Assembly: GCF_019837165.1 (NCBI RefSeq)
Contig: NZ_JAGYHC010000001.1
Coordinates: 2,604,001 to 2,668,000, forward strand
Direction of reading: 5' to 3'
Source of the DNA: Virgibacillus sp. NKC19-3
GTDB taxonomy: Bacteria; Bacillota; Bacilli; Bacillales; Amphibacillaceae
Length of the DNA stretch: 64,000 nucleotides
The translations under genes and the position numbers were made by a program. This document shows, piece by piece, positions 52,510-56,873 of the stretch (position 1 is the first letter of the stretch; each line of letters begins with the position of its first letter). A model generated the notes under the pieces. That model was given only the letters and a program-made list of their open reading frames with translations. It searched no databases and was not told the origin of the DNA.

Positions 52510-53589
52510 TTATCGTTTATATTTATAGTACAGCCTTGTATTCCAATGGAAAAATCGAGCCTGATAGCCACTTGCTCTCAACAAGTCCCTAGTTATACTA
52601 ATTCCATTATCCAATTTTTTCACCTTTGGGTCGCCCAAATACAAGCCAACCAAACCTTGATAGATCATTTTATGAAATGAACGATTCGATAAGCCATCAA
52701 TATGTTTATCCGACTGTTCGATAAAATAATGCAGCCGTTTTCTCATCATTTCCTCATTCGAATAATAGCTACAAAAATTTAAATCTGCTTCCTCTATATC
52801 CTCCTGCTGATCAATATAATAATCCAGTAAAATATGTAGGCCCTGCATATATGGGAAATACCCAGTATAAATTTCCTGCGCTAGATTATCATTCATATTA
52901 TCTCCAAGTGCATACGAAACAAGGCAAAAAATTCCGAGTGTCGACCCTGCAGCAGCGGAGAATTCATACCAGCTTAACCCGGGGGCACAAGCTTTATACC
53001 AGTCATACCAGCTTGTTAGACGTGGAATTCGCTCTTCTACTTTGACATGTTTATGCACTTGTAGATCAGCATATAATCCCTCTAACTTCATCACGTAATC
53101 TTCTATGACAGAATAATGATCAAGCTTTCGCAACATTTTTTGACATGTCCGAACAAGATCAGCCAAGTATTCCCCATCTCGTTGCTCATTCCGCCGTTCA
53201 TAATAATTTTTAATCGGATCTCCTGGTGTCAAAGCATCATGCATAGCCTCATGTAATAACCGAAAATCTTCTGGATCCATCGATGTGCTCCGGTCACATA
53301 AGTTATCTAAGTAATCACTTATCGTTTGATAGGCCACAATAAAGCGGATGGCTTCTCTCTCATTATGATCCGCAAGCAATGCATACACAGCTCCTCCCTG
53401 ACAGTGGAACCTTTTCGCTTCTATACTTGCTAGTGCCTGCGTCCGAAGCTCCGCGTTTGGGATTTGAATCGCGCGATTTTTCCAATGGGACAATTCCTCA
53501 TCCACGGCTGGAAGAATTCTCCGATATACAGCGTTCATTAAAGACACTGCCGTTGTAGGTATACGCTTTGCCAAAGTCATTCTCTCCAT
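52510..53589 (-). CDS. ytpB: Tetraprenyl-beta-curcumene synthase family protein (YtpB)
   Basis: A 359-residue all-helical terpene synthase of the DUF2600 family. YtpB of B. subtilis cyclises tetraprenyl diphosphate to tetraprenyl-beta-curcumene, a precursor of sesquarterpenes found in spore or vegetative membranes. Visible here are the CQGGAVYALL block, the acidic ISDYLDNLCDR stretch and the YFPYMQGLHILLDYYIDQQED segment, which supply metal-binding acidic residues. The start is uncertain: ATG at 53589 or at 53580, neither with a clear ribosome-binding site. ytpA, its operon partner in B. subtilis, is missing; ytoA follows divergently. Confidence 0.88.
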   Translation of the reverse strand: MERMTLAKRIPTTAVSLMNAVYRRILPAVDEELSHWKNRAIQIPNAELRTQALASIEAKRFHCQGGAVYALLADHNEREAIRFIVAYQTISDYLDNLCDRSTSMDPEDFRLLHEAMHDALTPGDPIKNYYERRNEQRDGEYLADLVRTCQKMLRKLDHYSVIEDYVMKLEGLYADLQVHKHVKVEERIPRLTSWYDWYKACAPGLSWYEFSAAAGSTLGIFCLVSYALGDNMNDNLAQEIYTGYFPYMQGLHILLDYYIDQQEDIEEADLNFCSYYSNEEMMRKRLHYFIEQSDKHIDGLSNRSFHKMIYQGLVGLYLGDPKVKKLDNGISITRDLLRASGYQARFFHWNTRLYYKYKR

Positions 53590-53645
53590 TCATGGAACTT
53601 TTTGTTATACTATATATATCACCATACTACCCTAGGAGGATTCAA

Positions 53646-54161
53646 ATGATAAGCCATTATAAACATATAACCCCTTCCATTCATGAAACAGCATTTATCG
53701 CAAAAGATGCGATGATAAATGGCGATGTAACCATTGACGAAGCGTCTAGTATATGGTTTAAAACTGTTATTCGCGGAGATGTTGCACCAACACGAATAGG
53801 AAAAAGAGTTAGTGTTCAGGATCTATCCATGCTTCATCAAAGTCCAAATAGTCCCTTAATTATTGAAGATGATGTAACCATTGGCCATCAGGTTACTTTA
53901 CATTCCGCAACCATCCGTAAAAACGCATTAGTCGGTATGGGGTCAATTATTTTGGACGGGGCTGAGGTGGAGGAACATGCATTTATTGGTGCAGGAAGTC
54001 TGGTTCCTCCAGGGAAAAAGATCCCTGCATACACATTAGCGATGGGTAGACCCGCAAAAGTTGTACGTGATTTATCGGAAGAGGATTATACTGAAATGGA
54101 GCGGATAAGAAAATCATATGTAGAAAAAGGACAGTATTATAGGAATTATACGGATTTATAG
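53646..54161 (+). CDS. ytoA: Gamma carbonic anhydrase-like hexapeptide protein YtoA
   Basis: A 171-residue left-handed beta-helix protein made of hexapeptide repeats (VTIDEASSIWFKTVIRGD, then VGMGSIILDGA and IGAGSLVPPG). It ends in a helix. The trimer-forming gamma carbonic anhydrase family includes YtoA/YrdA-type members that may be inactive; the histidines in LHQS, GHQVTLH and EEHAFIG sit at the usual metal positions. The start is the ATG at 53646, with AGGAGG 7 nt upstream; longer upstream frames overlap ytpB and lack this. An extended -10 (TGTTATACT) lies about 35 nt before it. Confidence 0.92.
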   Translation: MISHYKHITPSIHETAFIAKDAMINGDVTIDEASSIWFKTVIRGDVAPTRIGKRVSVQDLSMLHQSPNSPLIIEDDVTIGHQVTLHSATIRKNALVGMGSIILDGAEVEEHAFIGAGSLVPPGKKIPAYTLAMGRPAKVVRDLSEEDYTEMERIRKSYVEKGQYYRNYTDL

Positions 54162-54180
54162 GGCGTTGGCTTAGTGCGGG

Positions 54181-54345
54181 TTGTCTTCCAGTTTGGAGTG
54201 AGTCTCTCCCGTTTCGGAGTGCCTCACTCCCGATTTAGCGGGGGATGTCCCGGTTTGAAGAGGTCCCCTCCCGTTTCGGAGTCCTCCCCTCCCGATTTGA
54301 AACGGCCGTCTCCCGTTTTGAAATGCTTCTCTCCCGGTCGTGGAG
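54181..54345. repeat. Degenerate 21-nt tandem repeat, about eight units
   Basis: Units anchored on CTCCCGTTT or CTCCCGATTT recur with CCCG at 54208, 54229, 54249, 54270, 54291, 54312 and 54333, with a weaker unit before. Spacing is 21 nt, with 20 nt in one or two places. The three-codon-multiple period produces repetitive peptides (SRFE..PSRFG) in some frames. These lack ribosome-binding sites and are not called as genes. It lies between ytoA and the convergent DnaA-domain gene. Confidence 0.85.
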
Positions 54346-54407: not shown

Positions 54408-54818
54408 TTAATTTGAATTGCGTTCTAACATATTCATAATTTTATCTAATTTTGTTTTTATATTTTCTATTTCTTTTTCCAAGCGATCTAAACGAACAGA
54501 TTCACTATACTCGGATCGGTTTCGATTATATAGGCTGGTTGTTCTATTACCTGCATGAAATGACCTCACAGGCTTTTCTTCAACGATTAATTTTACTTCG
54601 GGCAGTTCATTTGTTGTTTCATAGATGGCATCCTTGATGAGAGATTGATAGTTCGACGCTACCCATTCCTTAGCAAATTCATTTGACAAAATTATATTCC
54701 AGCCATCTTTTTCAATCTTTAACCTACTAGTTTTAATCCAAGTATCAAAAGATGGCAGGCTAATTTGCTCCCTAATATAATCCAGTACCTCATTCCAAAT
54801 ATAAATTTCATTTTTCAT
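54408..54818 (-). CDS. Stand-alone DnaA N-terminal-domain-like protein with coiled-coil tail
   Basis: The 136 residues begin with about 83 that align throughout with domain I of DnaA: IYIWNEVLDYI, SLPSFDTWIKTSR, IILSNEFAKEWV, SLIKDAIYE. The landmark Trp, Pro-Ser-Phe and NEFA..W positions are all kept. Instead of the AAA+ and DNA-binding domains, a short basic linker leads to a heptad-like helix (about 108-133, LDRLEKEIENIKTKLDKIM). AGGGAG lies 8 nt before the ATG. DnaA domain I binds DnaD, SirA and the helicase and self-associates, so this could modulate initiation. That role is inference; no function is assigned. It lies beside a wrecked Rpn gene. Confidence 0.8.
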   Translation of the reverse strand: MKNEIYIWNEVLDYIREQISLPSFDTWIKTSRLKIEKDGWNIILSNEFAKEWVASNYQSLIKDAIYETTNELPEVKLIVEEKPVRSFHAGNRTTSLYNRNRSEYSESVRLDRLEKEIENIKTKLDKIMNMLERNSN

Positions 54819-54861
54819 TTCATAATCTCCCTTGTACTTGGCTGTTTTTATACACTTTATT

Positions 54862-55182
54862 ACTATAATGCTAGACTTTCCTTTTTACCGCTTTCTTTCC
54901 CCCTCTCAATTCCCTTCTGCTCATAGGAAATTAGGATCTACATAATTTTATCCGCTTCGGCCATTTATTTGATTTCATCCATCAATGCGGTCTCCTCCTC
55001 TTCATTCAGTTTTAAATATATTTCAAGAAAACATTGATAAGCCGTTGTTTCGCGGGATCTAGTTCCATTGTCACTAACATCCTCAAGAATTCTATTTTCA
55101 CCTGTAGTATCCATTCCTTGAATAGTTGGTCATGTCGGATATAATCTGTAGGCTTTCCTTGACCAGAAGCTAGGGGTATATT
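54862..55182 (-). pseudogene. Rpn-family recombination-promoting nuclease/transposase remnant
   Basis: Minus-strand pieces read PTDYIRHDQLFKE, then directly KIEFLRMLVTMELDPAKQRL. After a frameshift comes FLEIYLKLNEEEETALMDEI, a stop, MAEADKIM, another stop and YEQKGIERGKESGKKE. These are the start and the C-terminal helical third of an Rpn/PD-(D/E)XK putative transposase, with the central nuclease part deleted. GGGAGGTG precedes an ATA where a start codon would stand. Clearly dead. Confidence 0.75.
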
Positions 55183-55310
55183 AGCACCTCCCTCATAGTT
55201 TTATATGGGGTTTTCCGAGGTGTATTTCTGACTGTAGTATACTAAAAAGTAAGATAATTAAAAATCGCTTATATTATGGTATCTAGATTCCTCGTTCCTT
55301 ACCTAAAAGT

Positions 55311-55346: not shown

Positions 55347-56558
55347 CTAAACGTTGTTATATTTTTCCGCCAATGCCTTTAATTCCGCAATCTTATCTGT
55401 TTTTTCCCAAGGAAAATATATATCTGTTCTGCCAAAATGGCCATAGGCAGCTGTACTTCTGAAAATTGGCTTTTGCAAGTCAAGCATACGAATAATCCCG
55501 GCAGGTCGTAAGTCAAATATCTCCCGAATAGCTGCCACGAAGTTTTCTTCGCTGACAAGGCCGGTACCAAATGTATTGACCGCAATAGAAACGGGCTCCG
55601 CAACACCTATAGCATAGGCGAGCTGTACCTCACACGTTTTAGCCAAGTCAGCCGCAACAATATTTTTGGCCACATAACGAGCTGCATATGCTGCCGAACG
55701 ATCTACTTTCGTTGCATCTTTCCCACTGAATGCTCCTCCTCCATGACGGGCGTATCCACCGTATGTGTCTACCATAATTTTACGACCTGTTAATCCTGCG
55801 TCCCCTTGAGGCCCTCCAATCACAAAGCGCCCTGTTGGATTGATGAAATAATTCGTGGTTTCATCCAATAAATGCCCAGGAACAACCGGGCGAATTACAT
55901 GTTCAATGATATCTTTTTCAATTTGATCTCCTGTAATGTCTTGGTGATGTTGTGTTGAAATAACAATCGTATCCACCTTAATTGGGTTATCTTTTTCATC
56001 GTATTCAACGGTTACTTGTGTTTTTCCGTCCGGGCGCAGATAGGCAAGAACTTCTTCTTTTCTCATGTCTGACAGGCGTTTAGCTAACTTATGTGCAAGA
56101 GAAATTGGTAATGGCATTAGCTCCTCGGTCTCATCACATGCATAACCAAACATTAGCCCTTGGTCTCCTGCACCAATGGAAGCTATCTCTTCTTCACTTA
56201 TTTTCCCCTGGCGTGCCTCTAGTGCAGTATCAACGCCACCTGCAATATCTGGTGATTGTTCATCGATTGCGGTTAATACCGCACAAGTTTCAGCATCAAA
56301 TCCATACTTTGCTCTCGTATACCCTATATCTTTAATCGTTTGACGAACAATAGCCGGAATATCTGCATACGTACTGGTTGTGATTTCTCCTGATACTAAC
56401 ACAAGTCCTGTCGTCACTGTTGTCTCACAAGCAACACGTGCATGTGGATCATTTTTTAATATTTCATCCAGAATCGCATCTGACACTTGATCAGAGATCT
56501 TATCCGGATGCCCTTCTGTTACAGATTCAGATGTAAATAAACGACGATTTGCAGCCAT
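55347..56558 (-). CDS. metK: S-adenosylmethionine synthetase
   Basis: Makes SAM from methionine and ATP in the cytoplasm. The 403-residue protein has the opening [20 protein letters not shown] with the methionine/ATP-binding His, the [12 protein letters not shown] loop, [14 protein letters not shown] and the P-loop-like [16 protein letters not shown] block. GGGAGG lies some 10 nt before the ATG. It is preceded by a SAM-I riboswitch and a sigma-A promoter, giving feedback by SAM. It is divergent from pckA, the same pair as in B. subtilis. Confidence 0.97.
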
Positions 56559-56721: not shown

Positions 56722-56873
56722 AAGCCCTTCCTACAATCATGAGGAAAGGGTATGTATCCTTTCGCTCTTATTGTTCAAGGAGTGTCCTTGCATCAGGTGA
56801 GCACCTTTTCACCGCAGTGATGGTTGCTGGGTTTCATCGGGGCTGTCCCTCCACCAACTCTGAATAAGAGAGT
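56722..56873 (-). promoter_or_regulatory. SAM-I riboswitch (S-box) of metK
   Basis: On the minus strand the aptamer reads CTCTTATTCAGAG, GGTGGAGGGAC, CCGATGAAACCCAGCAACC, then a second arm ending AATAAGAG that closes P1. A terminator hairpin follows (CCCTTTCCTC paired with AGGAAGGG, then CTTTTTT, about 56722-56752). High SAM would stabilise the terminator and stop metK transcription. Confidence 0.95.

Follow-up and report, generated by a model that had tools for sequence, protein, structure and literature searches.

The stretch of DNA analyzed here, 64,000 nucleotides from Virgibacillus sp. NKC19-3 (the window), encodes a small protein in which a free-standing DnaA domain I is joined through a short linker to a C-terminal coiled coil (Table 1). 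Our preferred interpretation, which is tentative and drawn from sequence and predicted structure, is that it may be a functional, reduced DnaA-like paralogue that dampens initiation by binding DnaD, DnaA domain I or both. The gene product would then be a domain I hub on a short coiled coil, with neither an ATPase nor a DNA-binding domain.

Table 1. Features of the domain I gene and its surroundings (window coordinates).
Feature	Position	Strand	Remarks and basis
CDS, DnaA domain I + linker + C-terminal coiled coil	54408..54818	-	136 aa, ATG start
DnaA domain I, residues 1-79	54582..54818	-	Pfam match (residues 7-65), phmmer, AF2, Foldseek
Linker, residues 80-98, probably flexible	54525..54581	-	AF2 low confidence
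Single C-terminal helix, residues 99-135, heptad repeat	54414..54524	-	AF2 and shuffle test
RBS-like AAGGGAG, 8 nt before ATG	54827..54833	-	read from sequence
Rpn-type PD-(D/E)XK nuclease gene, decayed, C-terminal part with stops and frame changes	54875..55107	-	protein search with the L038 Rpn as query
Rpn remnant, N-terminal piece in another frame; middle of gene missing	55115..55190 (approximate limits)	-	by eye against the intact L038 copy
Hexapeptide-repeat (gamma-carbonic-anhydrase-like) protein, locus flank	53568..54161	+	profile search; same gene in sister species locus L054
metK, S-adenosylmethionine synthetase, other locus flank	55347..56558	-	profile search; same gene in L054
SAM riboswitch upstream of metK	56765-56870	-	RF00162, 68.9 bits; ordinary

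The window protein matches the Pfam family DnaA_N (PF11638) with an E-value of 1.2e-13 (51 bits, against a gathering cut-off of 24.6). Across the whole genome (4.05 Mb, two contigs), PF11638 is found in two places only, dnaA and the window gene (51.9 bits). The closest match of a phmmer search against PDB sequences is domain I of B. subtilis DnaA (4tps_B, residues 1-79, E=4.2e-15); for E. coli 2e0g the E-value is 0.0065. An AF2 model, built from an alignment of 39 DnaA N-termini with the window protein, L059 and L069 (42 sequences; L numbers denote loci throughout), has a mean pLDDT of 86.5 and a pTM of 0.56. The predicted elements (helices 4-18, 21-28, 47-56 and 58-69; strands 32-36, 39-44 and 75-79) follow the order α1-α2-β1-β2-α3-α4-β3 of the KH-like fold of DnaA domain I, and are succeeded by a helix at residues 99-135. 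Foldseek superposes the model on 4tps_D with an rmsd of 1.2 Å (E=3.5e-8, target TM 0.82). Confidence is low in the linker, where the mean pLDDT is 61 at residues 81-90 and 47 at residues 91-100, and residues 88-99 fall below 50.

The coiled-coil assignment of the tail rests on the predicted helix together with a heptad shuffle test. Seven successive a/d positions (L110, L113, I117, I120, L124, I127 and L131, with the heptad lettering read from the sequence) are all I, L, V or M (p=0.00025, 20,000 shuffles). Neither the AAA+ domain III (PF00308) nor the DNA-binding domain IV is matched at E≤1, and the protein ends after the coiled coil. A profile search gave no SirA-family match in the window protein, and a PADLOC scan of it gave none either. 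Because the profile, fold and heptad results agree, the preliminary description of this gene, as a free DnaA domain I with a heptad tail and no AAA+ or DNA-binding domain, proved right. A consensus scan revealed no promoter or terminator on the strand of the gene, the total being no more than in shuffles, which is weak evidence.

Compared to domain I of B. subtilis DnaA (4tps), the window protein is 39% identical over 75 alignment columns and shares both its fold and its docking residues; it differs from B. subtilis DnaA in having a short linker and a coiled coil in place of domains III-IV. The partner-binding face persists, with all ten docking residues listed for it (S20, P22, S23, T26, W27, N47, E48, F49, A50 and W53 in B. 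subtilis numbering) present. In the numbering of the window protein itself, T26 and W27 keep their numbers, and the others named below are N46, F48, A49 and W52. In B. subtilis DnaA, the substitutions T26A, W27A and F49A are described as lethal and as stopping DnaD recruitment (PMC10201431), and the same three residues are given as the core of the SirA interface (PMC4285326). DnaB is described as contacting a surface that overlaps the DnaD/SirA face (PMC13326638). K17, E55 and H60, named as residues of the DnaD patch (PMC6393240), are E, A and S in the window protein. Its helix α1 also keeps W8 and L12, the counterparts of W6 and L10, which in E. coli DnaA belong to the self-association patch. 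The genome that contains the window also encodes both DnaD and SirA.

These features suggest how the protein could act. The coiled coil would form a dimer or higher oligomer and thereby present the DnaD/DnaB/SirA docking face in multivalent form, away from oriC. Most simply, the oligomer might bind DnaD or mix with DnaA through domain I, and so compete with origin-bound DnaA for helicase recruitment. Damping is the direction that we would tentatively expect, a brake rather than a helper: SirA and DnaD are reported to compete for DnaA domain I, and blocking this face to reduce initiation (PMC10201431). The core contacts that a DnaD/SirA-binding decoy would need, T26, W27 and F49, are present in the window protein. 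Such a modulator would probably be kept or lost according to lifestyle.

These residues could also belong to a decoy for SirA, which by sequestering it would postpone the block that sporulation places on initiation. The presence of SirA in the genome and of T26, W27, F49, N47 and A50 in the window protein fits such an antagonist. However, the same residues bind DnaD, so that the data do not single out SirA, and we consider this role highly improbable.

To place the protein among its relatives, 159 genomes of the family were searched with the window protein and 397 genomes of the order, taken to be Bacillales from the named relatives, with a 12-row profile. Genomes with more than one match were re-searched, and two or more matches were found in 29 of 31 in one re-search and in 53 of 53 in another. 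At least 84 ORFs other than dnaA (83 distinct), from 82 loci, carry a DnaA domain I; the set combines the loci retrieved with L059, L069 and three plasmid loci, every ORF having been recruited by its similarity to the window domain. It is not a census, because some second matches, such as fragments of dnaA at contig ends and several stop-containing rows, were left out. Among the matches listed, a second match occurs in six of the seven genomes of genus g58 and in all four of g119.

The architectures of these relatives are diverse. By eye, domain I followed by a C-terminal coiled coil is found in the window protein, in the g25, g58 and g119 groups, and in L048, L049, L239, L240 and others, while in L253 and L281, for example, the coil is placed before domain I. 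A triple domain I repeat with a coiled coil is encoded at L051:6013-6963(+) (316 aa) and L052:6043-6999(+) (318 aa); each gives three profile matches, and L052 has three PF11638 stretches. Five proteins combine domain I with an AAA+ core but have no domain IV, and mostly end in a coil: L059:6001-7011(+), L245:7122-8165(-), L268:4758-5783(+), L278:4853-5941(+) and L244. PF00308 is present in all five, and L244 seems by eye to keep part of the lid. Fusions to other domains also occur. L245:2944-3939(-) joins domain I to a Uma2 nuclease (PF05685, E=8.4e-32), and at L237:4763-5383(+) domain I is followed by HTH_3 (PF01381, E=1.6e-13). At L283:2798-3637(-), an ACT domain (PF01842, E=3e-7) is in frame with domain I, an unusual fusion whose C-terminal part, as we take it, resembles PheB. 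In the initiators L053, L056, L057, L058 and L250, domain I stands at the C-terminus after a helix-turn-helix; these proteins match PHROG 26369, 'replication initiation protein', with E-values from 9.7e-26 to 6.1e-56. Separately, L233:4713-5183(-), L234:4601-5074(+) and L235:4857-5327(-) (genomes G086, G095 and G094) share an N-terminal stretch of about 75 residues before domain I, for which no Pfam match was found in L234.

The heptad run exceeds that of shuffles at p≤0.05 in 26 of 46 C-terminal tails and shows no excess in the other 20 (ORFs shorter than 260 aa with tails of at least 25; the p-values are uncorrected and the tails are not independent). No neighborhood is common to all loci within about 5-6 kb on each side (less at contig ends). 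Neighbors are shared within genera or families (g25, g58, g119, f16), and Rpn is shared in one branch.

The docking face is largely retained in this set, as judged from counts in B. subtilis numbering with gaps left out and from ORFs whose recruitment by similarity to the domain biases them. W27 is kept in 83/83 of the non-DnaA ORFs, W53 in 81/83, Y58 in 76/83, T26 in 72/83, N47 in 71/84 and F49 in 68/84. K29 (40/83) and P46 (23/84) drift, and A50, which shapes the docking face and is present in the window protein, is found in 28/84 relatives. The 77 canonical DnaA proteins used for comparison were chosen by a pattern that fixes S20, P22, T26, W27 and others.

Domain I with a coiled coil is under purifying selection in three lineages. 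Pairwise Nei-Gojobori dN/dS values, calculated without a significance test, are 0.08-0.34 in g25 (15 pairs), 0.05-0.19 in g58 (15 pairs) and 0.11-0.21 in g119 (6 pairs), and both halves of the proteins stay at or below 0.35 wherever they could be computed. Values of 0.32, 0.18 and 0.25 come from three more single pairs, in two of which the C-terminal half is less constrained (0.57 in L274/L286 and 0.44 in the triple-repeat pair). The g25, g58 and g119 proteins lie outside the tree group of the window protein; therefore, these values indicate that the architecture can be selected, and selection on the window copy is not thereby shown. The grounds named for dropping the preliminary description, a missing profile match or a recent dnaA truncation with no conservation, do not apply: the architecture recurs, and several lineages show purifying selection.

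A recent truncation of the chromosomal dnaA was ruled out as the source, given only 33% identity between the window domain and domain I of the DnaA of the same genome, and the recurrence of the architecture in other genera. Among the matches listed, the best relatives of the window protein are L037 (51%), L059 (48%) and L038 (43%). In L059, from Bacillus sp. FJAT-50079, domain I and a linker precede a DnaA AAA+ core (PF00308, E=5.8e-55; 39% identity to the DnaA of the same genome over 297 aligned columns). After this core comes a coiled coil, and the lid and domain IV are both missing.

Two sets of related loci illustrate possible steps in the loss of this core. In genus g20, L039 encodes domain I followed by broken AAA+ pieces, and L037 encodes domain I, a linker and a coil with no AAA+; a shared membrane gene (75% identical over 366 residues) lies downstream of both, and their upstream genes differ. 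In family f16, beside sat (ATP-sulfurylase), L278 has domain I, AAA+ and a coil, and L242 and L285 have domain I without AAA+; these three loci have three neighbor genes in common and their domains group at 100/100. Relatives at two loci thus differ by the presence of AAA+, and on at least two occasions the core appears to have been lost while domain I persisted.

In a tree of the domain (97 rows and only 88 columns, with many forks open and the bootstrap not settled), the window domain joins 16 others at a bootstrap of 94 and an SH-aLRT of 97, just under the firm mark. The group includes L059, L244, both L245 proteins, L268, L037-L041 and the initiators, and L278 falls outside it. Its domain I tentatively groups with that of the DnaA-like proteins L059, L268 and L245:7122-8165 (94/97), which by eye also have a coiled-coil end; the window protein differs from them in that they keep PF00308, and in that an 'LSxxEKExLF'-like linker, seen by eye in L059 and L245, is absent from it. 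The window protein probably descends from a paralogue of this DnaA-like branch that lost its AAA+ core, and not directly from dnaA.

The initiators in this group suggest a different role, in which an extra, multivalent domain I would bridge DnaA molecules or store DnaD/DnaB and promote helicase loading, or would load the helicase for another replicon. As they carry the same domain at their C-termini (94/97 grouping with that of the window), the domain probably recruits helicase loaders elsewhere, and DnaA domain I is described as able to act positively via HobA/DiaA (PMC5448010). The window protein itself has no DNA-binding or Rep region, so that only another protein could direct it to an origin, and we regard a helper function as very unlikely.

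Phage cargo was also considered as an origin and found unsupported, as pattern scans of IMG/VR gave no relative, although such patterns may miss distant ones. Only distant domain I matches were obtained from five phage records and 11 plasmid records; the four plasmid records inspected comprise one dnaA and three initiator-type proteins.

The history of the window copy was examined in the three available genomes of the genus. Both flanks match in the two other species. G002 has only a remnant, which matches residues 97-135, the coiled-coil end (69% identity), and G001 has 210 bases between the matched flanks, where a protein search of that genome for the window gene gave dnaA only. Because the flanks match and G002 keeps the tail, the gene was probably present in the ancestor shared with G002 and was later lost. 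Given its absence from G001 and the tail-only state in G002, the gene may be in the course of being lost from the window as well.

This history raises the question of whether the gene is a decaying relic of a mobile or dispensable unit (a DnaA-like protein plus Rpn), with an ORF still open because the loss is recent and with no present function. Consistent with a relic, the Rpn neighbor has decayed, G002 retains only the 3' end and G001 nothing, and related loci are broken: AAA+ remnants at L039, remnants after domain I at L040, one TGA in L041 and one TAA in L043. Over the 30 codons that can be compared with the G002 remnant, there are seven non-synonymous and four synonymous differences. Against this, the window ORF is intact, with a good RBS, a full predicted fold, all ten docking residues and an unbroken heptad, and purifying selection acts on comparable genes of three other lineages. 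We consider a relic somewhat unlikely and tentatively retain the reading of a functional paralogue.

The neighboring Rpn gene had been called dead in the preliminary description, and the pieces at 54875-55107(-) (G000:C1:2658875-2659033 and 2659021-2659107), the sole matches in the genome to the L038 Rpn, bear this out. The intact Rpn adjacent to L038 was used as a query against 12 genomes, 10 of which carry a related DnaA-I or DnaA-like gene. An Rpn lies on the same strand within 200 bp in three of the 10 (the window remnant, L038 and L245; P about 2e-7 under random placement), and within 3 kb in four, including L039 (P about 7e-8 under random placement); for both P-values, the genomes and distances were chosen after the loci had been seen, the genomes are not independent and the Rpn copies were counted by hand. 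The Rpn is upstream of the window gene; at L038 and L245 it is downstream. The link is absent in six of the 10 genomes, and Rpn copies also occur with no DnaA-I neighbor. When the L038 Rpn was used in a blastp search, it gave no match in the L059, L040, L041, L268, L278, L244 and L037 loci, and the L038 and L245 Rpn proteins score below their Pfam cut-offs. With its post hoc choice, the six genomes that have no link and the differing gene order, the association is a lead only.

Other nucleases occur near these genes as well. A PDDEXK_2 protein of another kind (L037:8425-9690(-), E=8.4e-58), outside the link counts, is encoded on the strand of the L037 domain I gene, about 2 kb away. The Uma2 fusion at L245, located about 3 kb downstream of the DnaA-like gene and its adjacent Rpn, matches the PADLOC defence candidate PDC-S03 (E=8.3e-56). 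Domain I could thus be an adaptor that brings a PD-(D/E)XK nuclease (Rpn, Uma2) to DnaD/DnaA complexes, either to defend against mobile DNA or to help it spread, with a partner that is dead in the window. The adjacent same-strand Rpn of one subfamily in three of 10 genomes (four within 3 kb), the PDDEXK_2 protein near the L037 gene and the Uma2 fusion would agree with this role. It is quite unlikely, given the post hoc choice, the six unlinked genomes, the varying order, the Rpn genes elsewhere with no DnaA-I and the sub-cut-off scores at L038 and L245. A broader proposal, which we also judge unlikely, would combine both themes in a hitherto undescribed set of DnaA-derived adaptors of Bacillales: paralogues that lost DNA binding, and often the ATPase, would display free domain I on coils (once as a triple repeat), as helicase-loading decoys and, in one branch, as parts that target PD-(D/E)XK nucleases (Rpn adjacent, Uma2 fused) to initiation complexes.

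Several known systems resemble parts of this picture. Initiators with DnaA_N are already known, such as the 'DnaA-like protein' (DALP) that is described as carrying DnaA_N on a Rickettsia plasmid (PMC4316617). Plasmid and phage initiators and DALP resemble the window protein in using DnaA_N as a module outside DnaA. However, a DALP-type Rep has an N-terminal Rep or helix-turn-helix part and a C-terminal DnaA_N, whereas the window domain is N-terminal (starting at residue 7 or before) and alone. NCBIfam NF005206 (PRK06672, 'hypothetical protein') and PHROG 26369 contain a DnaA_N-like stretch and match the window protein at E=2.2e-11 and 3.1e-10; these models have 341 and 347 positions, and the window protein reaches 43 bits against the NF005206 cut-off of 416. 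SirA is likewise a small protein at the domain I/DnaD interface, but it binds the DnaA side and is not a domain I homologue.

HdaB/GafY of Caulobacter, reportedly the subject of Frandi and Collier in 2020, is another small DnaA-related protein, and its overexpression affects replication. It was dropped as a homologue: HdaB/GafY is described as DnaA-related (PMC9632790), and the homologous N-terminal part of GafA is likened to the DNA-binding domain of DnaA, not to domain I (PMC6363796). The window protein has no Pfam match to a DNA-binding-domain-like region of this type.

In the open-licence literature searched, we found no description of a stand-alone domain I/coiled-coil protein, and no description or name for DnaA-like proteins that end in a coil after the AAA+ core. 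This agrees with the earlier statement that no function had been described for such a protein in Bacillaceae; none was found in that literature beyond Rep/DALP. DnaA domain I is the site at which helicase recruitment in Bacillus is switched on (DnaD, DnaB) or off (SirA). A natural free domain I, probably oligomeric, would be a control element of a kind undescribed in the papers covered here and could serve directly as a competitive inhibitor of this interface. Regulation by DnaA fragments in bacteria becomes directly testable through the wider set, in which there are DnaA-like proteins with no domain IV, matching loci where AAA+ was lost, a triple domain I and a nuclease fusion.

Beyond the end of the gene, the window contains a short intergenic repeat at 54171-54340, with a period of about 21 at 54183-54232. 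It belongs to a dispersed family that matches a number of other places in the two sister genomes, G002 having more of them than G001.
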